From Puniceibacterium sp. IMCC21224 (GTDB taxonomy: Bacteria > Pseudomonadota > Alphaproteobacteria > Rhodobacterales > Rhodobacteraceae): a stretch of DNA of 64,000 nucleotides. The stretch spans positions 208,863-272,862 of the forward strand of contig NZ_LDPY01000003.1 of NCBI RefSeq assembly GCF_001038505.1. The letters are read 5' to 3'. Both the position numbers and the translations under genes were made by a program. The notes below the pieces were generated by a model, which saw only the letters and a program-made list of their open reading frames with translations, was not told where the DNA came from and ran no database searches. Positions 12,775-55,376 of this stretch are shown here, piece by piece (position 1 is the first letter of the stretch; the number at the start of each line of letters is the position of its first letter).

Positions 12775-12995
12775 CAAGGTTATATTGCGCGCACAGTTTA
12801 TGTGCAGGGCAAAACTCCTTTGCCGCCTTTAAGATTGTCGATCTGTCGGGTATCACTCTTATCGAAGCAAGGCGATCTTCGTCAAGTCGTTATTATTGTC
12901 TTGCTAACGTTTATGTTGTCTTGTATCGCCCACGGCGTTTCGAACCCGTGGGACCGGTACTGCACCTCAGGCAGGAAAGGACCCAAGGGAAGGCC

Positions 12996-13355
12996 ATGAT
13001 AGAAGAAGCACCGAATGTGGTTACAGAAGACGGATTGCGCGGCCTGCTGGCCGAACACTACCTCATCGAGGTGGTCTGCAAGGATGGCGCTGAGAAGCGC
13101 CATAACAGTTGGTACGGCACATGGGTCATCCGTGCCGTTGCTGAGGACGGGCGTGACGACAAGATGCTCGTCACGAGCCGTAGCTATCTCAAGGTTCGCG
13201 AGTTCAAAACGATTGTCGGTCTTGTCAGCTTCCTTGCCGACATGGGCTGCACGACTGCCAGCATCCCGCTTGTCGAGGGTGCCCGCGAGCGCCATGCAGC
13301 ACCCGGGCGTACGCCCGAGCCACGAACCGGCCCGGTTCTGGTCAAGGACAACTGA
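12996..13355 (+). CDS. Conserved small protein leading the virB operon
   Basis: A 119-residue cytosolic protein. The ATG at 12996 is chosen because an AAGGGAAGG run precedes it. The core reads LRGLLAEHYLIEVVCKDG, then NSWYGTWVIRAVAEDG and LVTSRSYLKVREFKTIVGLV, a compact alpha/beta pattern without catalytic motifs. No family name is recognised. Its 3' end overlaps the start region of virB1, so it is the first gene of the transfer operon and might regulate it. The function is unknown. Confidence 0.6.
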   Translation: MIEEAPNVVTEDGLRGLLAEHYLIEVVCKDGAEKRHNSWYGTWVIRAVAEDGRDDKMLVTSRSYLKVREFKTIVGLVSFLADMGCTTASIPLVEGARERHAAPGRTPEPRTGPVLVKDN

Positions 13356-14064
13356 CCGCGCATTTGCGCTCGTCGTTGCATTGGGTACAGGTGTTTGTTC
13401 AGCACCCCCGACCCTTGCCGACGGTTTCATCTTCCAGGTCAGCCCTGATGGCCGACTGATCGACACAACTGATGCCACGAGCACCTTGCTCTCGTTCACC
13501 GGCGACGTAGACGCCCAGAATGGGCCACTTCCAGATCGTCTCTTTCTTTTTGCAGCACCGCAGTCCCGTGGGGATGATGATCCCCTGAGGGATGTGACGG
13601 CTGCAGCAGCGGTCGCCCCGCGCGCCGTCCGCGCCTCCCCCGAAATCTTCCACGCCATCGAGACCACCGCCTTGCGTTACGGCAGTCATGACGCTCTGCG
13701 TCAGGCGGATCTGTCGGTCACCGATTGGGCGCTGTTCTACCGCGCCAATATCGAGGTCGAGAGCGGCTATAACCCGCGTGCGCTGAGCCCGGTCGGGGCA
13801 ATCGGCCTCGGCCAGCTGATGCCGGACACCGCGCGCGATCTCAACGTCGATCCCCATGACATCGCCCAGAACCTCGATGGCTCGGCGCGATACCTTCTGA
13901 TGATGCTCGAGCAATTCGGCGATCCCGCGCTGGCGCTCGCGGCCTACAATGCCGGCCCCCATGCGGTCACCCGCCATGGCGGTATTCCCCCCTTTCGAGA
14001 AACCCAAGGGCATGTGGCCCGTGTGACGGCCGTGTTTCATCGGCTCAAAGGAGATCTTTCATGA
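13294..14064 (+). CDS. virB1: VirB1-like lytic transglycosylase
   Basis: About 256 residues with an N-terminal signal segment and a C-terminal SLT domain. The domain shows the catalytic glutamate in ANIEVESGYNPRALSPVGAIG, then LGQLMPDTARDLNVD, a GSARYLLMMLEQFGDPALAL segment and AAYNAGPHAV, the usual order for goose-type soluble lytic transglycosylases. It would open peptidoglycan so that the secretion channel can assemble. The ATG at 13294 overlaps the previous gene by about 60 bases. A later non-ATG start nearer the hydrophobic stretch is possible. The stop overlaps virB2 as ATGA. Confidence 0.85.
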   Translation: MQHPGVRPSHEPARFWSRTTDRAFALVVALGTGVCSAPPTLADGFIFQVSPDGRLIDTTDATSTLLSFTGDVDAQNGPLPDRLFLFAAPQSRGDDDPLRDVTAAAAVAPRAVRASPEIFHAIETTALRYGSHDALRQADLSVTDWALFYRANIEVESGYNPRALSPVGAIGLGQLMPDTARDLNVDPHDIAQNLDGSARYLLMMLEQFGDPALALAAYNAGPHAVTRHGGIPPFRETQGHVARVTAVFHRLKGDLS

Positions 14065-14351
14065 CGTCCAAACCATCCCTTGTCGCGCTCGGCGCGATGG
14101 CCCTCATCGTGCTGGCCGGCCCTGCGCTGGCCCAAAGCATCGACCTCTCGCCTGTGCAGACGCTGCTGCAGGGCATCGTCGATGCGATCACCGGTCCCTT
14201 GGGCATCGTGATCGGCACGCTGGCGTTAATCGGCGTGTTCCTCTCTTGGCTCTTTGGCATCCTCGATTTCCGCCAAGCGCTCTGGGTGGTGGTTGCAATC
14301 GCCGGCATCGCCGCAGCGCCCACCATCGTCGCCGCCATCTGGACGACTTGA
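14061..14351 (+). CDS. virB2: VirB2 major pilin
   Basis: A 96-residue protein with a signal peptide ending near LAGPALAQS and two hydrophobic helices (about residues 38-65 and 72-92) separated by a short polar turn, the classic cyclic or linear VirB2/TrbC pilin layout. The pilin assembles into the conjugative pilus after cleavage. ATGA overlap with virB1; virB3 follows after 24 bases. Confidence 0.88.
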   Translation: MTSKPSLVALGAMALIVLAGPALAQSIDLSPVQTLLQGIVDAITGPLGIVIGTLALIGVFLSWLFGILDFRQALWVVVAIAGIAAAPTIVAAIWTT

Positions 14352-14375
14352 GCCCCCATTTCTGAGTTCGCACCC

Positions 14376-14654
14376 ATGTCTGACCAGTCCCGCGTATTCA
14401 TCGGCCTTTTGAGGCCACCCAAGCTGATGGGCTTGCCGATCATGTACGCCATGGTCTGGCTCTTCGGTTCGACGCTTCTGTTCCTCTGGGTACAGAGCTG
14501 GGTGGTGGCCGTCTTCGCGGGGCTGGCTTGGCCTGCGCTCTGGAAGGCCGCAGACTGGGATCCGAACTTTCTCGATGTCCTGGTGATCACCTTGCAGGAA
14601 ACCCCACCCACGGCAAACCGCAAGTTGCACGGGGGTGACAGCTATGCCCCGTGA
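14376..14654 (+). CDS. virB3: VirB3 inner-membrane assembly protein
   Basis: 92 residues. The start of the mature region, RVFIGLLRPPKLMGLPIMY, is typical of VirB3, followed by two closely spaced membrane helices (about residues 20-55). VirB3 works with the VirB4 ATPase in pilus assembly. The last 11 bases overlap virB4, and the virB4 ribosome binding site lies inside this gene. Confidence 0.88.
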   Translation: MSDQSRVFIGLLRPPKLMGLPIMYAMVWLFGSTLLFLWVQSWVVAVFAGLAWPALWKAADWDPNFLDVLVITLQETPPTANRKLHGGDSYAP

Positions 14655-17049
14655 TGGAATTGCCGATGACGAGGCCGATGCGCCAGACGCGCTCGATCCG
14701 CTGACCGCGCTGCCCGCATGGGTCAAGGGCGAGAAGCGGCTCTCGTCGATGCTGCCCTATGTGAGCCTCGTGACCGACCGGACGATCCGGACGCGCGGCA
14801 ACGAGCTGATGCAATGCATCCGGCTCGAGGGGGTGAATAGCACCACGAGCGAGGATGCGCATCTCGACCGGATCGGCGGACTGCTGGCAGGCATCGTCGC
14901 GCAGGTCGGGACGGAGTTTTCCTTCTACCTGCACAAGGTCTCGAAAGCGGTCGATGTGACCCTGCCGCCCATTCCGGGCGAGGGATTTGCTGCCGCCGTC
15001 GACCAGCGCTGGCGCGCGCATCTGGGCTGGTCGGGCCTGCGCGACAAGACGCTGACCCTGACGGTACTGAAGCGCCCAGAGACCGGCAGCCGCTTGCCGT
15101 TCGGTCTGGGGGCATCCCGCGCGCGGCATGCGGCGGATACGACCCGGCGCTTACGCAAGCTCGACGAGGTCGTGGGGTTTCTCCTGTCATCCTTCGATGA
15201 GTTGAAGCCCCGCCTGCTTGCGGCCAGCACTGGCGAGCTTCTGGGGTTTCTCGGCTCCCTCAACACGGGCGAGGAGCATCTGCTCTTCCCGCGGTCGCGC
15301 CTGGGCGTGATCGCCGAGGACGTGGCCAATACCCGCGTCACCTTCCGCGGCACGACCATCGCGCTCTCCGACGGTGCCGTCGGCGACAAGCTCGGAGCGA
15401 TCTTCGCGGTGAAGAACTACCCCGCCAAGACCGATAGCCTGATGCTCGACGAACTGAACCTGCCCGTCGACATGGTGGTCACGCATTCCTTCGTGCCGAT
15501 CAATGCCAACATGATGGCGGGCCGGATCAAGCGGCAGCTCCGCCTCATGCAGGCGGCCAATGACGGGGCCGTCAGCCTCGCGCAGGAACTGGAATTGGCG
15601 CAGGACGATCTGGAATCAAAACGCCTGATCTTCGGCGAGCATCACATGACGGTGGCTGTCTATGCGCGATCGCAGGCCGCTCTTGACGACATCGCAGCCG
15701 AGATTCGTAACATCTCGGCCACCTCCGGCATCAACCTGATCTCGGAGGCCTTCGGGGCGCGGACGCATTTCATGGCGCAGCATCCCGGGAACACCGGTGC
15801 AAGGAGCCGCAAGGCCGCGATCACGAACCACAACTTCGCCGATCTCGCTACCTTCCACCGTACCCCGCTCGGTAAGACGGCCGCGCAAGTGCCCTGGGGC
15901 GTGCCCATCACGCTCTTTCCGACACCCGAGCGCAGCGGGTTCCGCTTCAACTTCCATGAACAAGGCGCACCGGATCGCGAGCCCACGGGTGGCCACACGC
16001 TGATCCTCGGCCGCCCCGGCTCGGGCAAATCCGTGCTGGCGGCTTTCCTGATGACCATGGCCCGGCGCGCAGGTGCACGGCTTTTCGTCTTCGACTATCG
16101 CGCCGGCATGGAAATGGCCGTCCGCGCGCTTGGCGGGAGCTATTCGACCGTGCGGGCCGGACGGCCCACGGGGCTCAATCCCCTCCAGACGGAGATCGAT
16201 GCCCGCGGTCAAGCCTGGCTTGCCGACTGGCTCGCAAGCCTCCTCGAGCGCCGCGACCGGCCCCTGACCCCTGTGCAGACCAATCGTCTGCAAGAGGTCG
16301 TGCGCCAGAACGCCAGCGCCGGGAACGCGGGCCTGCGGAACTGGTCGGACTTCGCCTCGCTCCTCGTCTCGACCGATGACGAGGGCGACCTCTTCGAGCG
16401 GATGCAGGAATGGACGGCAGAGGGCCGCTACGGCTGGATCTTCGGGGCGAACGCAGACGACACGTTCCAAATCGGGGGCAGCACCGAGGCTGACGTCGCG
16501 GGCTTCGACCTGACCGGCATCCTCGATTCCGAGAGCGAGCGGGAACGCATGGCGGTCCTGTCCTACCTCTTCCGCCGCGTCGAGCGGGTGATCGAGGACC
16601 GCAAGCCCACGATCATCGTGATCGACGAGGCCTGGAAGGCGCTCGACAACGCGTATTTCGCGGAGCGGCTGTCAAACTGGCTGGTGACGGCCCGCAAGCA
16701 AAACGCAGTCGTCGTGATGATGACGCAGTATGCAAGCCAGCTCGAGCGCACGCGCACCGGCAAGACCATTGTGGAAGCCGTGCCGACCCAGGTGCTCCTG
16801 CCCAACATCCGCGCCTCGGCCGCCGATTACGCAATGCTGGGGCTCAGCGACAAAGAACTCGACGTGCTTCTGGGTGTCGGCTCCGCCTCGCGGCTGGCGC
16901 TGGTGCGCGATGACCGCGGCGCGGTGGTCATCGATGCCGATTTGAGCGCCCTTGGCCCCCTCGTGACCATCCTTGGCGGCATGGAGAAGGGCGAGGCCCT
17001 CGTCGGCCCGGATTACCGCGACCGCCCTGATTTCTGGAGAGTGACATGA
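14644..17049 (+). CDS. virB4: VirB4 secretion ATPase
   Basis: 801 residues. The ATG at 14644 is preferred over a GTG at 14635 because GGGGGTGA sits just upstream. The N-terminal CagE/TrbE-type domain is followed by a RecA-like ATPase with Walker A GRPGSGKSVL (about residue 455) and Walker B IIVIDEAWKAL (about residue 658), plus the conserved MMTQYASQ segment. It powers pilus biogenesis and substrate transfer at the inner membrane. Length is normal for the family. It overlaps the lipoprotein gene downstream as ATGA. Confidence 0.93.
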   Translation: MPRDGIADDEADAPDALDPLTALPAWVKGEKRLSSMLPYVSLVTDRTIRTRGNELMQCIRLEGVNSTTSEDAHLDRIGGLLAGIVAQVGTEFSFYLHKVSKAVDVTLPPIPGEGFAAAVDQRWRAHLGWSGLRDKTLTLTVLKRPETGSRLPFGLGASRARHAADTTRRLRKLDEVVGFLLSSFDELKPRLLAASTGELLGFLGSLNTGEEHLLFPRSRLGVIAEDVANTRVTFRGTTIALSDGAVGDKLGAIFAVKNYPAKTDSLMLDELNLPVDMVVTHSFVPINANMMAGRIKRQLRLMQAANDGAVSLAQELELAQDDLESKRLIFGEHHMTVAVYARSQAALDDIAAEIRNISATSGINLISEAFGARTHFMAQHPGNTGARSRKAAITNHNFADLATFHRTPLGKTAAQVPWGVPITLFPTPERSGFRFNFHEQGAPDREPTGGHTLILGRPGSGKSVLAAFLMTMARRAGARLFVFDYRAGMEMAVRALGGSYSTVRAGRPTGLNPLQTEIDARGQAWLADWLASLLERRDRPLTPVQTNRLQEVVRQNASAGNAGLRNWSDFASLLVSTDDEGDLFERMQEWTAEGRYGWIFGANADDTFQIGGSTEADVAGFDLTGILDSESERERMAVLSYLFRRVERVIEDRKPTIIVIDEAWKALDNAYFAERLSNWLVTARKQNAVVVMMTQYASQLERTRTGKTIVEAVPTQVLLPNIRASAADYAMLGLSDKELDVLLGVGSASRLALVRDDRGAVVIDADLSALGPLVTILGGMEKGEALVGPDYRDRPDFWRVT

Positions 17050-43027: not shown

Positions 43028-43960
43028 TCACGCCCCCTTCTCGAACTTCATAACCGGGATACCCAGCTTCTTGGCCTTGTCGGCGAGGTTTTCCTGGATC
43101 CCCGTGCCCGGGAAGACGAGGACACCCACGGGCAGCACATCCAACATCGCGTCGTTGCGCTTGAAGGGGGCTGCTTTGGCGTGCTTGGTCCAGTCAGGCT
43201 TGAAGGCGACCTGCGTGACGCCCCGGGCTTCGGCCCATTTGGCCGCGATGAGTTCCGCGCCCTTGGGGCTTCCACCGTGCAGAAGCACCATATCGGGATA
43301 TTTGGTCTGCACCTGATCGAGCTTACCCCAAATCAGGCGGTGATCGTTGAAGTCGGTCCCGCCGGTGAGGGCGACCTTGGGGCCAGCAGGCAGCATCACC
43401 TCGGTTTCCGCGCGGCGCTTGGCGGCCAGGAAGTCACGGCTGTCGATCAGTGCTGCGGTCATGTGCTGTCGGTTCACCATCGAGCCAGTGCGGGGCCGCC
43501 AGGCCGAGCCTGTGTGATGGACGAACTCGGTGGCGGCGTGATCGCGCATCATGTCCATGCAATTGCGCCGTTCGATCAGGGTCAGGCCTTCGGCCGTTAG
43601 ACGTTCGAGCTCGACGGATTTCACCTCGGAGCCGTCCTGCTCGCGTTGGAGGCGGCGCTGCGCCTGCTCGTTCTCATCGAGCGACCGCTCGATACGGGCT
43701 GTGGCGCGGTGGAAGAGGTTGACCTGGCCCCAGAGCACTTCTTCAAGGTCGGGTTCCATGCGGGTGTCTTCCAGGGTCGCAACCAGGGCATCGAAGATGT
43801 CGGTGACAGCGACGGCAAGGCGCTGCCCGTCGGGCATCGGGCGCGGATCGGGCTCATCAAAGGGTCGGAAGCCGTACAGCTGAAGCTCATCGAGCGCATG
43901 GGCGGTCTGGGATGCGGTGTGGGCAGGTTCATACACATCGTCGTGGGTTTGGATCGTCAT
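43028..43960 (-). CDS. DUF2493 (SLOG-like) domain protein
   Basis: 310 residues. The last 120 form a DUF2493 domain: KVALTGGTDFNDHRLIWGKL, VLLHGGSPKGAELIAAKWAE and VLPVGVLVFPGTGIQENLAD, a Rossmann-like fold of the YspA/SLOG group that binds nucleotides or their derivatives. The N-terminal half is helical. It is found with Toprim and strawberry-notch genes on alphaproteobacterial plasmids and follows them here on the same strand. The biological role is unknown. Confidence 0.8.
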   Translation of the reverse strand: MTIQTHDDVYEPAHTASQTAHALDELQLYGFRPFDEPDPRPMPDGQRLAVAVTDIFDALVATLEDTRMEPDLEEVLWGQVNLFHRATARIERSLDENEQAQRRLQREQDGSEVKSVELERLTAEGLTLIERRNCMDMMRDHAATEFVHHTGSAWRPRTGSMVNRQHMTAALIDSRDFLAAKRRAETEVMLPAGPKVALTGGTDFNDHRLIWGKLDQVQTKYPDMVLLHGGSPKGAELIAAKWAEARGVTQVAFKPDWTKHAKAAPFKRNDAMLDVLPVGVLVFPGTGIQENLADKAKKLGIPVMKFEKGA

Positions 43961-44330: not shown

Positions 44331-45170
44331 TCAGCCCAACAGGCGCTCCCGATCCTCTCGCCCGATCTGCCTCGCCAGATGCTGGCGCAGCGCTTCCTTG
44401 CCGTTCGCCAGGAGATCATCGTTGAAATCCCCGAGCAGTGGTTCCAGCACCCGCACCGGTACCCCGGCCTTGGTGGCTCTGGCGCTCAACCTCTCTGCCG
44501 CGCGTTGCCCAGCCGGATCGCGGTCGATGGCGATGTAGAGGCGCTGCAACCCCTCCGACAACAGCAGGGCTCCGAGGTGACCTGACGAGAGCGCCGCCCA
44601 GACGGGAAGGCCAGGGGCCGCCTCGAACAGCGACAGCATGGTCTCGATGCCCTCGCCGACCACGAGGATGTCCTCATGCGAGGTCAGCTTGACGGCATTG
44701 CCCAGGAGGTGACCCATGGCCCGCCGCTGTGTCTCAACTGCTGCCTTGCCCTTGCCGTCGGGCGCAAGCCAGGTGCGATGCACGCCCCGCAAGGCCCCTG
44801 CCCCATCGGTGACTGCCGCGATCAGCGCCGGTTTGGGGATGCTTTTGGTCTGACCCTCATCCCGATGCCAGCACTTCGGGTGGAAGCGCAGGGCGCTCGT
44901 CACCCCGCCATGGGTGAGGCCCCGGGAGCGGAGGTAAGTTTCGGCAAGCGTGCCTTCGACCGGCACAGAGGCTGCGAAGAGCCGCGCCGCCGCCGCTGGC
45001 GTGCCACCGGGGGCCTTGGCTTTTCTCGGCACTGGCGCATCCGGGAGAACCGGTTGCGGACGGCCAAGATGCGCGCGGGCCTCGGCCAGAAGATCAGGAA
45101 AGCGTGAGATCCCAGTCCTCTCGCGAATGATGTCCAGAAGATCGCCATGCTCGCCGGTTGCGCCATCCGT
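44331..45170 (-). pseudogene. Toprim-domain protein, C-terminal part cut off by insertion
   Basis: Minus-strand codons from about 45170 to the stop at 44331 encode DGATGEHGDLLDIIRERTGI and continue to a Toprim domain with ILVVGEGIETMLS (catalytic-type glutamate) and LYIAIDRDPAGQRAA (DxD). Its missing N-terminus is found at 50803-50993, ending GPGAAGKFT. Joined, they give GKFT-DGATGEHGDLLD, which aligns with GHWTDAATSEHGDLLD of the inserted paralogue. The gene was therefore split by the 5.6-kb element. These Toprim proteins resemble plasmid primase-like accessory factors. Confidence 0.9.
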
Positions 45171-45171
45171 A

Positions 45172-45191
45172 TTATGTGGAATTCCACATAA
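45172..45191. repeat. 20-bp perfect palindrome at one end of the inserted element
   Basis: A self-complementary 20-mer centred on GGAATTCC lies between the Toprim C-terminal fragment and the left inverted repeat. The right end of the element has no such sequence, so it is neither target sequence nor part of the repeat. It shares TTATGT with sub-terminal sites inside the repeats, so it may be the recombinase crossover region or a coupling sequence carried from the donor site. Confidence 0.75.
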
Positions 45192-46330
45192 CACCGAACA
45201 TGTTGCGGCGCGGGTTATGTTGCGGTGGCGTGAACTTGCGCGGTTTGGCGGGGGTTTTCGCGGGGCTGGGCAACATAACCTCAGCGCGACGGGGGGATGT
45301 TCGTGATGGCTGGCGATGCAGCAGAGCTTTCGCGCCGCCTCGCACGGGACGCTGAGGCCGTGTGTCGGCATTACCTTCCCAACGGGCAACGACAGGGTCA
45401 GTACTGGACCGTCGGCGATGCGCGTAACACGCCGGGGCGGTCGATGTTCGTCCGGCTGAAGGGGCCGGAGGCGGGCCCCGGTGCGGCCGGTCATTGGACC
45501 GACGCCGCTACGTCGGAGCACGGCGATCTGCTCGACGTGATCCGGGAGAGCTGCGGCCTCGCCTCTTTCGGCGATGTCGCCGAGGAGGCACGTCGCTTTC
45601 TGAGCCTCCCGCGGGTCGACCCCGTCCCGACCATCAATCCTGCACCTGCCCGTGCCGCGATGGGATCGCCCGAAGCGGCGCGGCGGCTGATCGCGATGGC
45701 GCAGCCGATCCGGGGCACACCGGTCGAGACCTATCTGGCCGGTCGTGGCATCATGCCGGTCCATGGCGCGGGGGCGTTGCGGTATCATCCACGCTGCTAT
45801 TATCGGCCCGACGATGGCGGATCAGCGCAGCGGCGTCCGGCGATGATCGCAGCCGTGACCGACCTGCAAGGCAGGATCACAGGGGCGCACCGCACCTGGC
45901 TCGCGCCGGACGGCTCGGCCAAGGCCGCGGTCCCCACACCCCGGCGGGCCATGGGCAACCTTCTTGGCCATGCCGTGCGCTTTGGGGCGGCAGAGGATGT
46001 CCTTGTCGTCGGCGAAGGCATCGAGACGATGCTGTCGCTGCGGGCGGCGCTGCCGGGCATGCCGATGGCCGCCGCGCTGTCGGCAAGCCATCTCGCCGCG
46101 CTCAGGCTGCCCCCGTCCGTGCGTCGGCTCTATATCGCCCGCGATGTCGACGCAGCGGGCACCAGAGCCGCCGCGACCCAGGCCGAACTAGCGAGCAGTG
46201 CGGGCATCGAGGTGCTGACGCTCTCGCCTCGTCACGGCGACTTCAACGACGATCTGACGGTCCACGGCCTCGACGACCTGCGCGCGGCGATCCGGCCCCA
46301 GATCGCGCCCGAAGATGTCGACCGGTTCCT
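45192..46330 (+). repeat. Left terminal inverted repeat of the RIT element
   Basis: 1,139 bp, apparently identical to the complement of 49664-50802 over all the stretches I compared. The repeat ends inside the last codons of the Toprim gene, just after the DRFL codons, so the two protein copies differ only in their final residues. RIT elements usually have much shorter repeats. Confidence 0.88.
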
Positions 46331-46340
46331 CGGCAGATGA
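45306..46340 (+). CDS. Toprim-domain protein, left inverted-repeat copy
   Basis: 344 residues from the ATG at 45306, which overlaps a TGA in another frame (TGATG) and lies 9 bases after a GGGGGG run; an ATG at 45297 has no space for a binding site. The N-terminus VCRHYLPNGQRQGQYWTVGD matches the plasmid Toprim family, and the Toprim domain shows VLVVGEGIETMLS (about residues 230-242) and LYIARDVDAAG (about 275). It ends DRFLGR. On this side no host operon reads into the gene, so expression would need its own promoter. A primase-like or nucleotidyl-transfer role is suggested by family only. Confidence 0.85.
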   Translation: MAGDAAELSRRLARDAEAVCRHYLPNGQRQGQYWTVGDARNTPGRSMFVRLKGPEAGPGAAGHWTDAATSEHGDLLDVIRESCGLASFGDVAEEARRFLSLPRVDPVPTINPAPARAAMGSPEAARRLIAMAQPIRGTPVETYLAGRGIMPVHGAGALRYHPRCYYRPDDGGSAQRRPAMIAAVTDLQGRITGAHRTWLAPDGSAKAAVPTPRRAMGNLLGHAVRFGAAEDVLVVGEGIETMLSLRAALPGMPMAAALSASHLAALRLPPSVRRLYIARDVDAAGTRAAATQAELASSAGIEVLTLSPRHGDFNDDLTVHGLDDLRAAIRPQIAPEDVDRFLGR

Positions 46341-46374
46341 TCGTCCACGACCGGGTGAGACGACCACAACGGCG

Positions 46375-47370
46375 TTACAGGCCATTCAGGAAGGCCATGA
46401 GGTCCTTGTCCTCCTTCCACCGCCTTTTCGGTCCCGGAGAGCCGACCTCGCAAAGCGCCACGGCATTTGCCTTCAGCGTGAGGTCGATCTCGGCATAGAT
46501 GTTCGTGGTGCTGATTGACACGTGGCCGAGCCAAGCACGGATGGTGTTGATGTCGACGCCGGCGAGCACGAGATGGCAGGCCGTCGTGTGCCTAATGACG
46601 TGTGGGGTCACCGTCCGACCCGCCAGTCGAGGCACATCGGCAGCGCAACGCTCGACCAGCCTATACACGCCGAACCGTGTATAGGCATGGCCGAGCCTGC
46701 TGAGGAACACCGGGGCCTCGGGCGCACGGCCGAGGATCTGTTCCGTCAGGACTCGCTCCGTTTCCGGCCAGAGCGGGCATTGGCGTATCTTGCCGCCCTT
46801 GCCGTGCAGAGTGGCTAGATCGTGCCCACCTCTGTCGCGGTTCAGGGTCAGATCCCGAACCGTCAGTTGCGTGACCTCGGAGACCCGGGCTCCGGTATTG
46901 TAGAGGAAGAGAAGGAGCGCGTATTCGCTCTGCCCTCGATGGGTCTTGCGGTCCGGAACCGCGAGCATCGCCTCCATCTCCTCCCGCGTCAGCCAGCCGA
47001 CCGGCGGCGCGATCGCCTTCTTCGCGGCGATCGCGCGGATGTGGCCGCACCATTCGATGTGTGCGGGATCGCGGCTTCCCACAAAGCGGGCGAAGGCCCG
47101 GATGGCGGCGAGCCGCTGATTGCGCGTCCTGACGGAACATCCGCGCTCCTGCTCGAGATGGGCAAGGAACTTCAGAAGAAGTGCGGAGGTGAGGTCCTGC
47201 ATGGCCAGGCGTTCGATGGGCTTCCGGACCTTTTGGCTCGCGAAGGGCAGGAGCAGCTTGAATGTGTCACGATAGCTGGCGCGGGTGTTCCGGGCCAGAT
47301 TGCGCTCGCTGACGATATACTCGGTCAGGAAGCGCCGCAGCCATGGCCCAATGAGATCACGGTCTGGCAT
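46375..47370 (-). CDS. Tyrosine recombinase, third of the RIT trio
   Basis: 331 residues from the ATG at 47370, which follows GGAGGAGGG. The core-binding domain is at residues 1-105 (LARNTRASYRDTFKLLLPFA). Catalytic elements are the first arginine in LYNTGARVSEVTQL, then PHVIRHTTACHLVLAGVD (HxxR), WLGHVSISTTNIYAEI (H and the nucleophilic tyrosine). All key residues are present. It overlaps the second recombinase and is the last gene of the operon. Confidence 0.92.
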   Translation of the reverse strand: MPDRDLIGPWLRRFLTEYIVSERNLARNTRASYRDTFKLLLPFASQKVRKPIERLAMQDLTSALLLKFLAHLEQERGCSVRTRNQRLAAIRAFARFVGSRDPAHIEWCGHIRAIAAKKAIAPPVGWLTREEMEAMLAVPDRKTHRGQSEYALLLFLYNTGARVSEVTQLTVRDLTLNRDRGGHDLATLHGKGGKIRQCPLWPETERVLTEQILGRAPEAPVFLSRLGHAYTRFGVYRLVERCAADVPRLAGRTVTPHVIRHTTACHLVLAGVDINTIRAWLGHVSISTTNIYAEIDLTLKANAVALCEVGSPGPKRRWKEDKDLMAFLNGL

Positions 47371-48313
47371 CCGACCCTCCTCCGGCATAGCGCGCAAAGC
47401 GCAGCGAGGCCTGCGCGAGGAGGTTCGGCGTCATCGTCAGATAGACCTTCGTGCCTTCGAGGTCGGAATGGCCGAGATAGGTGGAGAGCGCGGGCAGCAA
47501 CCGCTGCACATCCGCTCCCTGCCGGTACCAGGCCATCAGCCTGTGAACCGCAAAGCTGTGCCGGAGGTCATGCAGACGCGGGTTCTCCCGCCCGCCGGCC
47601 CTGCCATGCACGTCCGCAACGCGTCTCAGGCGATCGAAGGCGGTCTGAACGGTACTGCTGGAAAGCCGCGTGCCGTCTCGGTTGGCGAGCAGGAACGACG
47701 TGGCACTCTCCGCGACCCCGTTGACGGGCCGAACCGAGAGGTGGGTATCCAGTATTCCCGCAAGCTGCGGACCCACGGGAACCAACCTGCTCTTTTGGAA
47801 CTTCGTATCGCGGATCGTGAGGATCGCCTCCGCCGTATCCACATCAGACAGGGTTAGAGCAGTCGCCTCGCCGAACCGCAGCCCGGCACCGTAGAGCATC
47901 AGCAGCAGGGTCCGGAACGTCGCGGAGTCGAGTTGCCGGGAACCTTGCAAGGCATTGTCGATGTGATCCGGGTCGAAGAGGCGCTGCAGCTGATCCCGGC
48001 TGTAGATATGTGGCGGTGCCTGCAATGGTGGGCGCCGCTCGCTTTCAGGAAGCGGCGACGAGAGGGCATAGCCGCGGCTGATCGCGTAGCGCCAGAACCC
48101 GGCCAGCGCGTAGTTTTTGTTTTCGCGGTGCCGGGTAACGGGGCCCGTCCCGGCGAGGAAGGCTTGGACCTGCGCGCATGTGACCGCGTCGCATCCGGCG
48201 TCGCCATCGGCGTGCTGAAGGAACTGTCGAAGCAGGTTCCGCGCCGTCACGAACTTGACGCCGTGCGCCTGCCGCCATGCCACGTAGTGTTCGATCGCAT
48301 CCCTCAGCTTCAT
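47357..48313 (-). CDS. Tyrosine recombinase, second of the RIT trio
   Basis: 318 residues from the ATG in the ATGA overlap at 48310-48313 (the frame extends upstream but only inside the first recombinase). Catalytic region: LYGAGLRFGEATALTL, LHDLRHSFAVHRLMAW (HxxR) and YLGHSDLEGTKVYLTM (H and tyrosine). Complete and probably active. The three recombinases are distinct in sequence, as in RIT elements, where all three are thought to be needed. Confidence 0.92.
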   Translation of the reverse strand: MKLRDAIEHYVAWRQAHGVKFVTARNLLRQFLQHADGDAGCDAVTCAQVQAFLAGTGPVTRHRENKNYALAGFWRYAISRGYALSSPLPESERRPPLQAPPHIYSRDQLQRLFDPDHIDNALQGSRQLDSATFRTLLLMLYGAGLRFGEATALTLSDVDTAEAILTIRDTKFQKSRLVPVGPQLAGILDTHLSVRPVNGVAESATSFLLANRDGTRLSSSTVQTAFDRLRRVADVHGRAGGRENPRLHDLRHSFAVHRLMAWYRQGADVQRLLPALSTYLGHSDLEGTKVYLTMTPNLLAQASLRFARYAGGGSDARP

Positions 48314-49554
48314 ACGAGACCCTCCAGATCGAGGGCAGCGACCTCCCGCAGGGTCCGGAGGTCGACCTTGGCGTAGATCGCCGTCGAGGTCGGGTCCCGG
48401 TGGCCGAGGAAGTCGCCGATGACCTTCATCGCCACGCCTTGGTCCAGAAGGTGCTGGGCGGCGGCATGGCGGAGCGCATGTGGTCCTCGACGACCGGAGA
48501 CCACGCCGATCCCGGCCAGGCGGTCGCGCACGATCTTGCCCAGAGCCTTCCGCCCAAGGGGGCGGATCGGGGCACAGGATGTGAAGAAGAGGCTCCGCCC
48601 GAAGCCGGTGGGACGCCCGTTCCGGATGTAGTCGAGGATGGCGCCGCCGACCTCCTGCGACAGCGGCCACAGATGCGTGCGACCCGGCTTTGGACAATGC
48701 ACGCGCAGGAGCTCGTTCTCCCAGTCGAAGTCATCGAGGCTGAGACCCGCGACTTCGCCCGCGCGCAGGCCGAAGGAGGCGAAGAGCACCAGGATCGCGC
48801 GATCGCGTCTGTCGACGGGGCGCTGACCCTCGGACGCCAACAGACGCTCGACATCCTGACGCTTGATGCCCTTCGGAAGGCACTCATCGGCCCTGTATCC
48901 GGGCGCGACGATGCCCGCGGCCAGCCCGGGCCGACACCACCCGCGCTTCTCTGCGAAGCCGACAAACGACCGGACCCGCTGCGCGAAGTCGTGGATCGTT
49001 CTCCGGCTCCACACCCCGCGTTGGTGCTCATCGCTGACGATGCGGTCGATATCGGTGATCTCAAGAGTGTCGAGCCGGATCCCCATCTGGTCGAGCTGTT
49101 GGAGGAATGTACCGGCGGCGCGCCCGTAGCTTTCGATACTGGCCTTTGCCAGGCCACGTTCGTCGCGCAACCAGCGCTCGTAGGCCTGAAGCTCGGGCGG
49201 AGGCGGACTAAATTCGCCTTCGGCGTCTTCGAGCCAGTCGAGATACCGCACCAGTGCGATACAGTGACTAACGAATCGTTGGCGGGCCTTCGACGTGGCC
49301 GGCGTAGCGCTTCTGCGGCCCCGCGGCTCCGACCAGAGTGTCGCGGCGGCTTCGATGTTCCGCTGGTGGATCCGATCGCCGTCGCGAATGTCCAGAAGGC
49401 GAACGAGGTTGAGGTGGGCGTTGGCCTGTTTGCGCAGGTTGGCGCGGCTCGCGCCGGTTCCCTTCAGGTGGACCAGGTAATCCGCGCGTTGTGCCGCGAG
49501 CGGGGCGTCACGATGTTTCGCCGCGGCGGGCGGCAGGAAGATGTCTTGGAACAT
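48310..49554 (-). CDS. Tyrosine recombinase, first of the RIT trio
   Basis: About 414 residues from the ATG at 49554, chosen because GGAG lies 8 bases before it; an ATG at 49581 is possible but starts inside the operator palindrome. It is the longest of the trio, with an extra N-terminal domain (residues 1-100) before the core-binding domain. Catalytic elements: FGLRAGEVAGLSL, PHALRHAAAQHLLDQG (HxxR), FLGHRDPTSTAIYAKV (H and tyrosine). Complete. It heads the minus-strand operon. Confidence 0.92.
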   Translation of the reverse strand: MFQDIFLPPAAAKHRDAPLAAQRADYLVHLKGTGASRANLRKQANAHLNLVRLLDIRDGDRIHQRNIEAAATLWSEPRGRRSATPATSKARQRFVSHCIALVRYLDWLEDAEGEFSPPPPELQAYERWLRDERGLAKASIESYGRAAGTFLQQLDQMGIRLDTLEITDIDRIVSDEHQRGVWSRRTIHDFAQRVRSFVGFAEKRGWCRPGLAAGIVAPGYRADECLPKGIKRQDVERLLASEGQRPVDRRDRAILVLFASFGLRAGEVAGLSLDDFDWENELLRVHCPKPGRTHLWPLSQEVGGAILDYIRNGRPTGFGRSLFFTSCAPIRPLGRKALGKIVRDRLAGIGVVSGRRGPHALRHAAAQHLLDQGVAMKVIGDFLGHRDPTSTAIYAKVDLRTLREVAALDLEGLV

Positions 49555-49557
49555 GGG

Positions 49558-49582
49558 TGTGTCTCCATAATGTGGAGACACA
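49558..49582 (-). promoter_or_regulatory. Operator-like inverted repeat at the recombinase operon start
   Basis: TGTGTCTCCA (49558-49567), five bases, then its exact complement TGGAGACACA (49573-49582), immediately upstream of the first recombinase start at 49554. The GGAG of one arm is the likely ribosome binding site. It could be a repressor site or an RNA hairpin limiting recombinase translation. Confidence 0.6.
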
Positions 49583-49632
49583 GGATTTCGCAGGTCAGGA
49601 CATGATTTGTGGGTTTTTCGGTTCGGACGGTC

Positions 49633-50688
49633 TCATGAACACGACCTCGCTGCACCCTTCAGCAGGAACCGGTCGACATCTTCGGGCGCGATCTGGGGCC
49701 GGATCGCCGCGCGCAGGTCGTCGAGGCCGTGGACCGTCAGATCGTCGTTGAAGTCGCCGTGACGAGGCGAGAGCGTCAGCACCTCGATGCCCGCACTGCT
49801 CGCTAGTTCGGCCTGGGTCGCGGCGGCTCTGGTGCCCGCTGCGTCGACATCGCGGGCGATATAGAGCCGACGCACGGACGGGGGCAGCCTGAGCGCGGCG
49901 AGATGGCTTGCCGACAGCGCGGCGGCCATCGGCATGCCCGGCAGCGCCGCCCGCAGCGACAGCATCGTCTCGATGCCTTCGCCGACGACAAGGACATCCT
50001 CTGCCGCCCCAAAGCGCACGGCATGGCCAAGAAGGTTGCCCATGGCCCGCCGGGGTGTGGGGACCGCGGCCTTGGCCGAGCCGTCCGGCGCGAGCCAGGT
50101 GCGGTGCGCCCCTGTGATCCTGCCTTGCAGGTCGGTCACGGCTGCGATCATCGCCGGACGCCGCTGCGCTGATCCGCCATCGTCGGGCCGATAATAGCAG
50201 CGTGGATGATACCGCAACGCCCCCGCGCCATGGACCGGCATGATGCCACGACCGGCCAGATAGGTCTCGACCGGTGTGCCCCGGATCGGCTGCGCCATCG
50301 CGATCAGCCGCCGCGCCGCTTCGGGCGATCCCATCGCGGCACGGGCAGGTGCAGGATTGATGGTCGGGACGGGGTCGACCCGCGGGAGGCTCAGAAAGCG
50401 ACGTGCCTCCTCGGCGACATCGCCGAAAGAGGCGAGGCCGCAGCTCTCCCGGATCACGTCGAGCAGATCGCCGTGCTCCGACGTAGCGGCGTCGGTCCAA
50501 TGACCGGCCGCACCGGGGCCCGCCTCCGGCCCCTTCAGCCGGACGAACATCGACCGCCCCGGCGTGTTACGCGCATCGCCGACGGTCCAGTACTGACCCT
50601 GTCGTTGCCCGTTGGGAAGGTAATGCCGACACACGGCCTCAGCGTCCCGTGCGAGGCGGCGCGAAAGCTCTGCTGCATCGCCAGCCAT
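49633..50688 (-). CDS. Toprim-domain protein, right inverted-repeat copy, coupled to host reading frame
   Basis: About 351 residues, identical to the left copy except for the last residues (ends LKGAARSCS, because the repeat stops before the final codons). The ATG at 50688 shares its A with the TGA that ends the truncated host Toprim frame (TGATG), so ribosomes translating the host fragment can restart here. The strawberry-notch gene and the host Toprim start lie upstream on the same strand, so this copy should be expressed from the host operon and may supply the lost function. Toprim motifs are as in the left copy. Confidence 0.87.
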   Translation of the reverse strand: MAGDAAELSRRLARDAEAVCRHYLPNGQRQGQYWTVGDARNTPGRSMFVRLKGPEAGPGAAGHWTDAATSEHGDLLDVIRESCGLASFGDVAEEARRFLSLPRVDPVPTINPAPARAAMGSPEAARRLIAMAQPIRGTPVETYLAGRGIMPVHGAGALRYHPRCYYRPDDGGSAQRRPAMIAAVTDLQGRITGAHRTWLAPDGSAKAAVPTPRRAMGNLLGHAVRFGAAEDVLVVGEGIETMLSLRAALPGMPMAAALSASHLAALRLPPSVRRLYIARDVDAAGTRAAATQAELASSAGIEVLTLSPRHGDFNDDLTVHGLDDLRAAIRPQIAPEDVDRFLLKGAARSCS

Positions 50689-50802
50689 CACGAACATCCC
50701 CCCGTCGCGCTGAGGTTATGTTGCCCAGCCCCGCGAAAACCCCCGCCAAACCGCGCAAGTTCACGCCACCGCAACATAACCCGCGCCGCAACATGTTCGG
50801 TG
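49664..50802 (-). repeat. Right terminal inverted repeat of the RIT element
   Basis: Complement of 45192-46330 over 1,139 bp. The outer end is followed directly by host sequence encoding GPGAAGKF on the minus strand. Perfect identity of two such long repeats implies recent formation or continual gene conversion. Confidence 0.88.
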
Positions 50803-50993
50803 AACTTGCCGGCTGCGCCCGGCCCCGACGCAGGCCCGATCAACCTGACAAAGAGCGACCGGCCGGGATTGTTCTGCAGATCGCCGACGATCCAGTAAGA
50901 CCCTTCCCGCCGCCCGGCGGGAAGGTATGCACGACAAACGCTTTCGGCATTTGCTGCCAGATCGCGGACAAGATCTTCGGTCTCGGAATACAT
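50688..50993 (-). pseudogene. Toprim-domain protein, N-terminal fragment fused to repeat-encoded tail
   Basis: Starts MYSETEDLVRDLAANAESVC four bases after the strawberry-notch stop and continues through GRSLFVRLIGPASGPGAAGK. After about residue 64 the frame enters the inverted repeat and encodes 37 unrelated residues before the TGA at 50688-50690. Host sequence ends at 50803. The rest of the gene is at 44331-45170. The fragment lacks the Toprim domain, but its translation probably drives re-initiation on the repeat-encoded paralogue. Confidence 0.88.
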
Positions 50994-50996
50994 GAA

Positions 50997-53900
50997 TCAA
51001 TTCCCTCTACGATCATGTAGTCCTGTCACAGAACAACGTGCAAGCAGACGATCAAGCACTGCGATGCCGCTGGAGTCTGCTGGGCAGAACAGGCGCAGCT
51101 TCCAGCTGATGATCTCCGAAAAGAAGCCATCGGCCTTGAGCCGGTCCTTGGCGGCGCCCAAAAAGCCCGACAGTTCGATCCGGTTCACCCCCATGACGCG
51201 GGACCGGTGCAACTCCATCCCCTCGGCCAGCCGCACGACTGTCTTGCCCTCGAGAACGAGGGCATGAACCTGCGCGCTCGTGAGCTTTGGCGCATCAGTG
51301 GCGAGCGTTGTCGCGACCCAAGTCGGCGAGACACGACGACCGATGATACGCTGCCCGTCGTCGGTTTGCAGCCGGTAGACCCGGGTCTCATCCTGCGGCA
51401 GTTGCTTCCAGATTGGCAAAAGAAGCCCCGCCACGATGTGCAGCGTGGTTTCCGTGAACTCCGGCACCTCGGCCAGTTCGGCAGTCCAGGCCGCACTGAA
51501 GGCCGCGCGGTCGGCCTCGAGCCAATGTGTGTCCTCCATGATCCTGGCCGGGACCGTGTTCGCCTCGGTGGGGCGGATCAGGCGCAGGCGGGGCTCGATG
51601 GTGCCATCATCCAGCATCAGGCTGGTCGCGGGCACCTGCACCGCAGCCCGGCCTGAGCGACTGTTGACCAGTAGGTGCGCCTTAGGATCGTCGAGCCAAT
51701 CCAGCGCATCGGCCAGCGACAGTGGTGTGTTGCGGCGCTTTTCCGCGATGGTGAGAAGCTGAGACTCGGTACCGGAGTCCGGATGAGTGTAGATCACCCG
51801 AGCGTCCGTCACACGGAAACTCTCGGCGCGTAGTGTCTCTAACCCGAGGTCATAGACCCCCGCGGTAATGGCCCCTTCGATCCGCTGGTCGAGAAGCTCT
51901 TCGAAGGCCGTAAACAGCACGACTTGCATGTCTATTGTCAGCGCAAGCAGGCGATTGAGGAAGGTGGTGATCGGCGGCAGGTCATCCTTCAGACCGTTGT
52001 CATCAGTCAGGCTGAGGCCGGTCGCATCCTCAAACGCCCCGAGCGAGCAGCCGGCCACGTCGCCGCGATAGAGGCGCCGGTAAAGCTGACGCAGGGCATC
52101 GCGGGCATAGGGGCTCTCGAGGTTATCCTCGGGCCGAAACAGCCCCTGCCCGCCGGTCTGGCGTTGGCCACGCGTGATGGCCCCAAGTGTGTCGAGACGG
52201 CGCGCGATGGTCGACAGGAACCGCTTCTCCGCCTTCACATCCGTGGCGACGGGTCGGAACAGCGGCGGCTGCGCCTGATTGGTCCGGTTGGTGCGGCCCA
52301 ATCCCTGGATGGCGGCGTCTGCCTTCCAGCCGGGTTCCAGCAGATAGTGGACCCGCAGGCGCTGGTTCCTGGCGCCAAGATCGGCGTGATAGCTGCGCCC
52401 GGTGCCGCCGGCATCCGAGAAGATCAGGATGCGCTTCTGGTCATCCATGAAGGCGGCGGTTTCCGCGAGGTTGGCCGAGCCCGCCCGGCTTTCCACGACC
52501 AGCCGCGCGGCATGCCCCTCGCCCTTGCGCACAATGCGGCGCGACCGGCCCGTGACCTCAGCCACGAGGTCGGTGCCAAAGCGCTGCACAATCTGGTCAA
52601 GCGCCCCCGGCACGGGTGGCAATGATGCCAGCTTTTCGATTAGGGCGTCCCGCCTGCGGGCGGCCTCGCGGCATTCCACCGGCTGGCCGTCACGCACCAC
52701 AGGCCGGGACGAGAGATTACCCTCACTATCGGTGAAGGGCTCGTAGAGTTGCACCGGGAAGGAATGGGCGAGGTAGTCGAGAACGTATTCGCGCGGGGTG
52801 ATGTCGACACGGATGTCGTTCCACTCGTCAGTCGGGGTTTCCGAAAGTCGGCGTTCCATCAGCGCCTCGCCGGTTGAGACAATCTGGATGACCGCCGAAT
52901 GTCCCGCGTCGAGATCGGCCTCGATGGCGGCAATGAGGGTGGGGGTTTTCATGGAAGTCAGCAGATGGCCGAAGAAGCGCTGCTTGGCGGACTCGAAAGC
53001 CGAGCGGGCGGCGGACTTGGCCTGCCGGTTCAGCGTGCCGGCATCCCCCGTGATGTTGGCGGCCTCCATCGCGGCGGCAAGGTTGTTGTGGATGATGGCG
53101 AAGGCCCCGGCATAGGCATCGTAGATGCCGCGCTGCTCAGGGGTCAGCGCATGCTCGAGCATCTCGTACTCGACGCCGTCATAGGAAAGGGACCGTGCAG
53201 TGTAGAGGCCGAGAGATCGCAGGTCGCGGGCGAGGACCTCCATCGCCGCGACACCGCCCGCCTCGATGGCCTCGACGAATTCCCCGCGCGTGGCGAACGG
53301 AAAGTCGTCCCCGCCCCAGAGGCCGAGGCGCTGTGCATAGGCGAGGTTATGAACCGAGGTCGCGCCCGTGGCAGAGACATAGACCACGCGGGCATTGGGC
53401 AACCTGTGCTGCAGGCGCAGTCCTGCCCTGCCCTGCTGCGAGGCGGTGACATCGCCGCGCTCGCCTTTCGATCCGGCGGCGTTGGCCATGGCATGGCTTT
53501 CATCGAACAGGATCACCCCGTCGAAATCTGCCCCCAGCCAGTCGACGATCTGGTCGACGCGGGATTTCTTGGCACCACGCTCTTCGGAGCGCAGCGTCGC
53601 ATAGGTGGTGAAGAGAATGCCCTCGGTCAGCGGGATATCTTTGCCTTGCGCAAAGCGCGACAGCGGTGTCACCAGCAAGCGCTCCTGCCCAAGTGCTGAC
53701 CAGTCGCGCTGCGCATCCTCCAGCAGCTTGTCGCTCTTCGAGATCCAGAGCGCTTTGCGCCGTCCTTGCGCCCAATTGTCGAGCACGATCCCGGCTGACT
53801 GGCGGCCCTTGCCCGCACCGGTGCCATCACCGAGGAAGAAGCCGCGCCGGAAACGGATGACGTCGGGATCATCATCCTTGGCGGCAGAGACCATATCGCC

Positions 53901-55376
53901 GGTCTCATCGACGCACCACGATCCAGCGAGGTGCGTGCCATGCGCTTCGCCCGCGTAGATCACCGTCTCAAGCTGCGCGTCTGACAGGAGGCCATCACAC
54001 AGTACAGCGGTTGGCAGCTTGGGGCGATAGCTGGGTTTTGGGGGCGCGACCGAGGCCATAGCGGCCGATTGCACCAGCTTAGTCGGGTGCGGCTCCGCCC
54101 CAGGGATGTCGATCGCCTGCAGGCGGAAGGTCTCATAAATTGCATCCGATAGGCGCGCGCTGGCACCGTCCTCGGTCGCGTCGCGCAGGCTATAGGCAAG
54201 ATCCTCAGCATCGATCTGTGTTGCGGTGCTGGTGGTGGCTGTTGCGGACGTAGCGTGCAACCTGCCATTGGCGGTTCGCGTGGCATGGGCAGAATTTCCC
54301 GAAAAGGGGGAAAGAGGAGTTTGCGCGTGCAATACTGGCGTTTCCAGCGTCAGGCGCGGTGGGACATGGGCAGTGATCAGCGAGAGCAGGCTGGTCACAT
54401 CAGGGCCTATAGGACGCGTCAGATCAGCGGTGATGCCACCTGCCTCACCACCGCGGCATTTGTCGAACACTGAAATACGCGTCTCGAAACTGGTGCCGTG
54501 CTTGGCGAAGGCTGCACCGGACACCGCGCCGGTGAAGACCAGATGCGCGGACTCGGTCAGGCTTGCAAATGTCTCTACCCAGGCTGGCACATCGGGCGCG
54601 AAACTTGCGCCAGTGATGGCCACAAGTCGCCCACCTGGGGCAAGCCGTGCCAAAGCTGAACGGATGTGCCGGGCCGTAGCCATTGTCGTGCGACCATCGA
54701 CATTGGCCAGAGCGGAAAACGGCGGATTCATCAGGATCACACTTGGGCGGAGGTGCGCGTCGAGGTAATCGTTGATCTGAGCGGCGTCAAAGCAGGTGAC
54801 AGGGGATTCCGGAAACAGAAGGCGCAGCAGATCGGCGCGGGTCTCGGCAAGTTCGTTGAGCGCGAGGCTGCCGCCTGCAATCATGGCCAAGATGGCCAGA
54901 AGTCCAGTCCCCGCTGAAGGCTCCAAGACCAGATCGCGCGCGGATATCTGCGCGGCCGTAAGTGCCGCGAACCCCATGGGCAGCGGGGTGCTGAATTGCT
55001 GGAAGCGCTCCATCTCTTCCGATCGCCGGGTATGAGTTGGCAACAGGTTTGATACCTTGGCAAGGATCGGCAGCAAGGCTGTAGGCGATCCAGCTCGGGC
55101 CAACAGCGCGCGACCGAATTTCCGCAAGAAGAGGACCAGCGCCACCTCGCAAGCCTCATAGGCCAGCTTCCAGTTCCAGGCGCCTGTCGCATCTGAGCCG
55201 CCAAAGGCTTGCTCCATCTCAAGGCGCAGGCGCAGCCCGTCGATTTGGAAGCCCTGTGCCAGGTCGGGTTGCAGCGCTTCGGCAACGGCGATGATCGCTG
55301 CAGCAGTATCTGGGGAGGGAATTGAGGCAACTGGCGAAAGCGCGCGAACGGGTGCAACGGGGGCGAGGTGGGTCAT
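50997..55376 (-). CDS. Strawberry-notch-like methyltransferase/helicase
   Basis: 1,459 residues combining an N-terminal adenine-type methyltransferase (EPSAGTGLLAI at about 152-162; NPPF at 217-220) with a strawberry-notch SF2 helicase: Walker A LGDGTGAGKGRQSAG (about residue 515), ILFDESHAMANA (about 625), VYVSATGATSVHN, then the C-terminal IFSDAGGTGRSYHADLGARN and IQGLGRTNRTNQAQP. Such giant proteins are carried by many alphaproteobacterial conjugative elements and are thought to protect or process transferred DNA, but the function is not proven. It heads the minus-strand operon with the Toprim and perhaps DUF2493 genes. It is intact. Confidence 0.92.
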   Translation of the reverse strand: MTHLAPVAPVRALSPVASIPSPDTAAAIIAVAEALQPDLAQGFQIDGLRLRLEMEQAFGGSDATGAWNWKLAYEACEVALVLFLRKFGRALLARAGSPTALLPILAKVSNLLPTHTRRSEEMERFQQFSTPLPMGFAALTAAQISARDLVLEPSAGTGLLAILAMIAGGSLALNELAETRADLLRLLFPESPVTCFDAAQINDYLDAHLRPSVILMNPPFSALANVDGRTTMATARHIRSALARLAPGGRLVAITGASFAPDVPAWVETFASLTESAHLVFTGAVSGAAFAKHGTSFETRISVFDKCRGGEAGGITADLTRPIGPDVTSLLSLITAHVPPRLTLETPVLHAQTPLSPFSGNSAHATRTANGRLHATSATATTSTATQIDAEDLAYSLRDATEDGASARLSDAIYETFRLQAIDIPGAEPHPTKLVQSAAMASVAPPKPSYRPKLPTAVLCDGLLSDAQLETVIYAGEAHGTHLAGSWCVDETGDMVSAAKDDDPDVIRFRRGFFLGDGTGAGKGRQSAGIVLDNWAQGRRKALWISKSDKLLEDAQRDWSALGQERLLVTPLSRFAQGKDIPLTEGILFTTYATLRSEERGAKKSRVDQIVDWLGADFDGVILFDESHAMANAAGSKGERGDVTASQQGRAGLRLQHRLPNARVVYVSATGATSVHNLAYAQRLGLWGGDDFPFATRGEFVEAIEAGGVAAMEVLARDLRSLGLYTARSLSYDGVEYEMLEHALTPEQRGIYDAYAGAFAIIHNNLAAAMEAANITGDAGTLNRQAKSAARSAFESAKQRFFGHLLTSMKTPTLIAAIEADLDAGHSAVIQIVSTGEALMERRLSETPTDEWNDIRVDITPREYVLDYLAHSFPVQLYEPFTDSEGNLSSRPVVRDGQPVECREAARRRDALIEKLASLPPVPGALDQIVQRFGTDLVAEVTGRSRRIVRKGEGHAARLVVESRAGSANLAETAAFMDDQKRILIFSDAGGTGRSYHADLGARNQRLRVHYLLEPGWKADAAIQGLGRTNRTNQAQPPLFRPVATDVKAEKRFLSTIARRLDTLGAITRGQRQTGGQGLFRPEDNLESPYARDALRQLYRRLYRGDVAGCSLGAFEDATGLSLTDDNGLKDDLPPITTFLNRLLALTIDMQVVLFTAFEELLDQRIEGAITAGVYDLGLETLRAESFRVTDARVIYTHPDSGTESQLLTIAEKRRNTPLSLADALDWLDDPKAHLLVNSRSGRAAVQVPATSLMLDDGTIEPRLRLIRPTEANTVPARIMEDTHWLEADRAAFSAAWTAELAEVPEFTETTLHIVAGLLLPIWKQLPQDETRVYRLQTDDGQRIIGRRVSPTWVATTLATDAPKLTSAQVHALVLEGKTVVRLAEGMELHRSRVMGVNRIELSGFLGAAKDRLKADGFFSEIISWKLRLFCPADSSGIAVLDRLLARCSVTGLHDRRGN

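Follow-up and report, generated by a model that had tools for sequence, protein, structure and literature searches.

RIT elements are described, in the accessible text of the papers on them, as compact units of about 3.5 kb with 28-34-bp repeats (PMC3414803, PMC10214605, PMC8138268). Here we analyse a relative of these elements, found in a 64,000-nt stretch of DNA from Puniceibacterium sp. IMCC21224 (contig NZ_LDPY01000003.1, positions 208,863 to 272,862), referred to below as the window, where it interrupts a gene for a Toprim protein. With the described RIT elements it shares adjacent RitA, RitB and RitC genes and an insertion within a gene, the described cases including a radC and a transposase gene; an inverted repeat and a palindrome, overlapping in the described elements, occur in both, although the repeat lengths differ. 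Unlike them, as far as the available parts of those papers go, the window's element has gene-carrying repeats of about 1.1 kb and a single target gene family.

Other mobile elements also use protein genes as sites. According to the part of the source that is available, the integrative and conjugative element (ICE) SXT in prfC and IMEVchUSA3 in dusA each break a protein gene and supply sequence that keeps it expressed (PMC8409611). The present element likewise integrates inside a protein gene, in 20 of the 20 loci that could be read; in contrast to what is described for those two, it gives a whole second gene with its own start, from either end and with a predicted translational coupling. The site of Tn554 is radC, and we know of no replacement that it carries for this target. 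Like the element studied here, Tn554 is a multi-recombinase transposon with a gene as its site (mentioned in PMC3414803, available in part). GInt and SE elements are similar in having several tyrosine recombinases and in being site-specific, SE circles carrying 6 bp of flank; they differ in a further conserved gene beside their recombinases, and the accessible text describes no replacement of a target gene (PMC10214605). No description of a Toprim-replacing RIT was found in the literature on RIT elements, on Toprim proteins with tyrosine recombinases and on target restoration, in which subscription papers are poorly covered.

A RIT-type element in a plasmid-type Toprim gene

Taken together, the comparisons below make it highly probable that the element is a site-specific RIT-type transposon that targets a single position within Toprim genes of the plasmid type (genes for DnaG-like primases) and that carries at each end a replacement which would restore the broken gene. 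In the window, open reading frames (ORFs) and Pfam matches delineate a plasmid-type operon on the minus strand, with genes for a Strawberry-notch helicase, a DUF7146/Toprim protein and a DUF2493 protein, the second of which is interrupted by an element with three tyrosine recombinases of the RIT type (Table 1). An earlier note on this DNA had claimed that a three-recombinase element splits a Toprim gene into the N- and C-terminal parts (N-part and C-part) given in Table 1, that each 1,139-bp repeat holds an inward-reading Toprim paralogue, and that the truncated host frame stops in a TGATG overlap with the right-hand copy. All of this was confirmed, with the refinements that the gene ends lie a few codons beyond the repeat and that a likely start of the right-hand copy can be placed.

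The two repeats are exact reverse complements and enclose a unique centre of 3,333 nt, and the three recombinase ORFs between the arms all lie on the minus strand. GxRxxE-, HxxRH- and GH..Y-type motifs are present in all three recombinases, their genes are adjacent and of the RitA, RitB and RitC types (annotated as overlapping in the related locus L007), and a RitA tree groups the element with RITs of other genomes. Each arm encodes a protein with DUF7146 and Toprim_3 domains and stops a few codons short of the stop of its Toprim gene, which results in two different C-terminal ends: ..FLGR in the left copy (stop at 46340) and ..FLLKGAARSCS in the right one (stop at 49633). The frame of the host N-part enters the element and ends at the TGA at 50690-50688, which shares one base with an ATG; this ATG, at 50688, is the likely start of the right Toprim, rather than the in-frame ATG at 50697. 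The element Toprim retains GEGIET, DVD and DFND motifs; a DaN-acid motif is described, in the accessible part of the source, as a mark of catalytically active Toprim primases on mobile elements (PMC5512222). A PDB search with the element Toprim returned nothing at E 0.1. A perfect 20-nt palindrome lies on the C-part side only.

Table 1. Features of the interrupted operon and of the inserted element, in window coordinates
Feature	Position	Strand	Evidence
Strawberry-notch helicase gene, upstream of the broken Toprim gene	50997..55376	-	AAA_34, Helicase_C_4
Host Toprim N-terminal part, about 64 codons, own start kept	50803..50993	-	ORF; intact homologue
Truncated host frame with element leader, 101 aa, stop TGA within TGATG	50688..50993	-	ORF
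Right inverted repeat arm	49664..50802	none	repeat comparison
Right (RitA-side) element Toprim, TGATG-coupled to host N-part	49633..50688	-	DUF7146, Toprim_3
RitA tyrosine recombinase	48310..49581	-	Phage_integrase; RIT naming by comparison with PMC3414803, PMC8138268 (both available in part)
RitB tyrosine recombinase	47357..48328 (longest ORF 47357-48697)	-	Pfam; extent from likeness to relatives
RitC tyrosine recombinase	46375..47397	-	Pfam
Left (RitC-side) element Toprim, inward, pointing away from host C-part	45306..46340	+	ORF, Pfam; start from likeness to right copy
Left inverted repeat arm	45192..46330	none	repeat comparison
Perfect palindrome TTATGTGGAATTCCACATAA, spacer of C-part side only	45172..45191	none	sequence
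Host Toprim C-terminal part, severed from its start, frame open	44331..45170	-	DUF7146, Toprim_3
DUF2493 (YAcAr/SLOG) gene of host operon	43028..43960	-	Pfam

The same element, at 95% identity, was found on Rhodobacter xanthinilyticus pEJ01 and on Sagittula sp. MA-2 p4, in each case dividing a different Toprim gene at that position; its recombinases oppose the host operon there, whereas in the window the two run in the same direction. Since two plasmids hold a 95%-identical element at the same position of other Toprim genes, the arrangement is not a matter of chance. Three further genome contigs (3,333, 3,391 and 3,333 nt) match the entire unique centre at 96% and are assemblies that break at the repeats.

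Relatives of RitA were sought without requiring a Toprim gene, in GTDB genomes (48 loci) and in plasmids (10 records). For the RitA tree 57 loci were offered and 52 kept, L052, L055, L056, L057 and L058 being dropped for having fewer than 300 residues in one match; L059, L060 and L064 stand outside it. A branch with support 100/99 places 43 of the 52 rows on one side and nine other RITs on the other. Among the 43, Toprim was seen in 27 and is partial or missing in 4, and in 12 the contigs end before a Toprim or leave it open, these including L016 and L019, in which a Toprim 3' end stands at both contig ends. No Toprim was seen in the nine RITs outside the clade, of which the L073 contig and, less so, L050 and L051 are too short to exclude one further out. 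Inverted repeats elsewhere measured 37 bp in L050, 106 bp in L051, where the contig ends, and 28 bp in a second RIT of Sagittula p4. Counting the remnant L010 and two loci with a broken RitA, L052 and L055, the clade comes to 46 loci, mostly alphaproteobacterial; Toprim mapping of its elements covered 29 loci. One scan of viral contigs gave nothing beyond a distant recombinase.

Target position, leader and junctions

A host flank could be read in 20 of the 46 clade loci (the window, L007, L008, L009, L010, L024, L026, L027, L028, L030, L031, L037, L039, L040, L042, L046, L052, L055, L065 and L066), and in all 20 a Toprim gene is broken at the same position, directly after the host's conserved G[KR][WF]. 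The other 26 are unplaced, most of their contigs ending within the element; the neighbours in L018, L035 and L045 are cargo or host. The earlier note had proposed to list the insertion sites of relatives and had held that copies lying mostly outside Toprim genes would speak against it. Every site in the 20 readable loci turned out to be a Toprim gene, and no insertion elsewhere was shown among the 46.

The unplaced copies were followed up in 17 genomes (of L013-L022, L025, L028, L035, L041, L044, L045 and L047), the rest of each being searched for a junction of N-part and leader. Complete junctions were found elsewhere in the genome in 5 of the 17 (G774, G778, G781, G782, G784), and TGATG is present at seven such junctions. 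In 4 of the 17 (G775, G777, G786, G787) the junction is cut by a contig end inside the leader; a contig ends at the insertion position in G779 and G785, and inside the N-part in G776. Three genomes have several copies in different Toprim genes, namely G781 (three read, a fourth listed), G782 and G784 (two each). These at least two copies per genome, together with the near-identical elements in different Toprim genes and plasmids, suggest by comparison that the element is mobile.

The leader was examined at both ends of the elements with enough sequence, L023_A being excluded because too little upstream sequence was available. At all 28 of these ends, which represent 20 distinct leaders, the broken host frame continues 34-35 codons into the element and stops in a TGATG over the start of the element gene. 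The distance from the terminal motif to the stop is 102 or 105 nt at every end, and GGGAG or GGGGG stands just upstream of the overlapping ATG at 27 of them. Read from the host side, 13 of 17 N-side junctions stop in TGATG over the start of the element Toprim, and L010 adds one. A profile of 11 N-part and leader peptides matched 3,369 proteins at E <= 1e-10 among 7,992 scored; the leader motif is present in 116 of the best 120 of these 3,369, among which the leader takes 111 distinct forms and the tail measures 35 or 36 residues. As the list is ranked by likeness to the leader, this result shows abundance, not frequency.

The recombinases run along the host operon in 7 of 17 loci (the window, L009, L039, L042, L046, L052, L066) and against it in 10 (L007, L008, L024, L026, L027, L031, L037, L040, L055, L065), the orientation of L027 being taken from its right side. 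Behind the host N-part stands the RitA-side copy in 6 of 13 loci and the RitC-side copy in 7, in agreement with the earlier note's claim that either orientation puts a Toprim gene behind the host N-part. On the C-part side, 10 of 10 junctions have two short cores separated by a palindromic spacer (perfect or imperfect) of about 20 nt; this spacer was absent from 13 of 13 N-side junctions.

Element Toprim genes, host operons and incomplete loci

All 43 readable element Toprims are open; 28 of the 43 reach 340 aa or more, another 14 run into a contig end or begin at one, and the RitA-side copy of L026 is without its 5' part. Thirteen elements with far-apart copies gave a synonymous divergence (dS) of 0.5-1.0 and a ratio of nonsynonymous to synonymous divergence (dN/dS) of 0.27-0.42, in a set that includes closely related elements (L029 with L034, L032 with L033) and many partial alignments; the copies are nearly identical in five elements. 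A ratio of 1.5 between L029_C and L034_C was dismissed as a signal, dS being only 0.01. Within one large group a separate clade (11 rows, support 99/97) unites the RitA-side copies, indicating that both paralogues were retained through many moves. The copies were homogenised in the window's group, L065 and L066, and over 1.1 kb the repeats of the window, L007 and L008 show complete or near-complete identity. Similarity between the two copies is highest in their outer part, of which 430 nt are the same in L009; a need for the element ends to match would predict this. L012, an intact plasmid gene, falls among the element Toprims on a long branch, and these may have come from host genes once or repeatedly.

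Uninterrupted Toprim genes in the same gene neighbourhood are common, and the uncut site is found in Roseicitreum pRA02, whose N-part is 97% identical to the window's, and in Phaeobacter pP97_c. A Toprim of this family (E <= 1e-50) is carried by 318 plasmid records and a RitA of the clade by 6, two of which are versions of one plasmid. The second Toprim operon of the window's genome (L106) has an altered site, GKWQD; a similar site is nonetheless occupied in L092.

Some loci record later or contrasting events. On Mesorhizobium amorphae pM0123d (L010) RitA has been cut and its frame shifted, no RitB or RitC of the element was found, and just 74 matched codons are left of the host C-part, but the decay has spared the N-part, the leader, TGATG and the element Toprim. 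Mesorhizobium sp. YC-39 (L052), where the coupled Toprim is likewise kept, shows the same event at an earlier stage. On Sagittula p4 the second, ordinary RIT (L110, 5143-13272), with its 28-bp repeats, splits the helicase gene adjoining the Toprim insertion and brought no helicase copy; the two helicase halves are unlike in their similarity to the window's gene (46% vs 90%). In Acidocella L028 and L030 an N-part stands beside the RIT, on both sides in L030, with an early stop and no Toprim supplied, which may reflect an odd element or an assembly effect. In L027 the RIT is flanked by the starts of the Toprim genes of two different operons, in inverted order, and one Toprim copy is missing; the locus lies inside a 3.4-kb inverted repeat (82%), probably two helicase genes. 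Cargo was noted in four elements: between the two Toprim ends, L016 has MerR, MerT and a pyridine-nucleotide reductase (read as MerA-like by position) and L019 a ChrB_N protein; L066 has annotated urease subunits and NikR (12247-15355), and L065 an SLC13 permease and a potassium channel (12386-15052).

Proposed gene replacement and its alternatives

The target position, the matching ends, the palindromic spacer on the C-side, the in-frame TGATG leaders and the mostly two open, constrained Toprims are facts of the sequence. They could be brought together as follows. The excised element would form a circle with a near-palindromic joint, arranged end-core-palindrome-core-end. Recombination at either core would then insert it either way round, place one of its two ends behind the host N-part and leave the palindrome next to the C-part. 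Ribosomes finishing the truncated host frame would restart at the overlapping ATG and make the element Toprim instead of the destroyed one, and the host C-part, severed from its start, would decay. In this manner the element would remove the cost of landing in a gene used by the plasmid.

Several observations weigh against this scheme or narrow it. At 4 of 18 N-side junctions (L027 left, L030, L031, L037) there is no coupled Toprim and no complete one adjoins. Nine loci on contigs that extend further (L010, L026, L027, L028, L030, L031, L037, L052 and L055) lack a copy or have a truncated one, so that some insertions would break the gene unmended, or would mend it in one orientation only. In the 17-genome survey there was no junction in G783 and G789 and the leader end alone in G780; the leader of G788 lacks TGATG, and G790 shows an early stop with no Toprim. 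L010 and L052 share their N-part and leader and hence represent one event, and the remains of another, distant RIT near both may have helped the decay. The window's genome has a second, intact Toprim operon on another contig (site GKWQDAAVG), and repair may therefore not be vital there. The element is also rare in the sampled genomes: only the window's own was found among 385 genomes of the class and 394 of the family, a search in which few candidates were scored per genome and misses are possible, and two of the 385 hold a Toprim-less or undecided relative. As for the insertion model, the orientation counts do not suffice by themselves, since identical long repeats let the centre flip by homologous recombination. 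The direction of the spacer was independent of that of the RIT at the 10 C-side junctions, and the palindromic circle is for this reason something that we infer. It could be that insertion goes one way only and that subsequent homologous recombination between the long inverted repeats produces the opposite orientation. The repeats of the window, L007 and L008 would permit this, and the unlinked spacer fits it. Both orientations are found, however, among elements whose copies are mostly diverged (L040 opposite, L009 same), if with outer parts still alike, and we regard one-way insertion as unlikely while granting it an appreciable chance. Gene replacement would stand even so, because either route leaves a coupled Toprim.

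Other readings concern the Toprim genes and the leader themselves. The end Toprims could be passengers or helpers in transposition, for example by priming DNA synthesis on the circle, their place behind the N-part being incidental. In the available part of the source, the Toprim_3 proteins that mobile elements carry are regarded as primases (PMC5512222), and the genes noted above in L016, L019 and L066 show that other cargo is carried too. Such a role would leave unexplained the in-frame TGATG leader at all 28 ends, the same target gene family at all readable loci and a coupled copy that outlived the decay of its recombinases; nor was a Toprim seen in the RITs outside the clade. We therefore consider it improbable. 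The open leader and TGATG might also be a by-product of end DNA bound by the recombinases, unselected for translation. Paired ATGTTGC/GCAACAT motifs do occur inside the leader, a shuffled leader of the same composition stays open in the host frame 34% of the time, one alternative frame is stopped in just 6 of the 20 leaders, and the leaders are related and hence not 20 independent cases. Openness alone would thus be weak evidence. A fixed TGATG stop in 20 distinct leaders that diverge to 54% identity and vary in length by 3 nt alone is stronger, the other alternative frame is stopped in 20 of 20, and a by-product appears to us very improbable. That element and host genes are related, and that the copies resemble each other most in their outer parts, could further suggest that the Toprim copies are homology arms, by which the element spreads through homologous recombination with host Toprims. 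The junctions, however, share a single position, marked by a short core and a palindromic spacer, and are not crossovers within aligned genes, and the copies are wholly within the element, the leader separating them from the host gene; this explanation is hardly credible.

If the gene-replacement reading is correct, it shows a way for a transposon to land cheaply in a conserved, useful gene, by carrying that gene at both ends and coupling it to the broken frame. It would give a role to the unusually long inverted repeats of one RIT lineage, and it offers an identity for a common hypothetical protein of about 100 residues, which would be a broken Toprim start followed by an element leader, as in 116 of the best 120 of the 3,369 matches. 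It also yields predictions on translational coupling and on the choice of orientation by three recombinases. It is tempting to speculate, although we do so tentatively, that a whole transposon clade persists by replacing the primase of conjugative plasmids with its own. One gene would serve as the target and, at both ends, as the replacement, with orientation irrelevant; the element's primase would then be the operon's only one and loss of the element harmful, a combination of repair and addiction that may recur across alphaproteobacterial plasmids and may also serve as a vehicle for metal-resistance and metabolic cargo.

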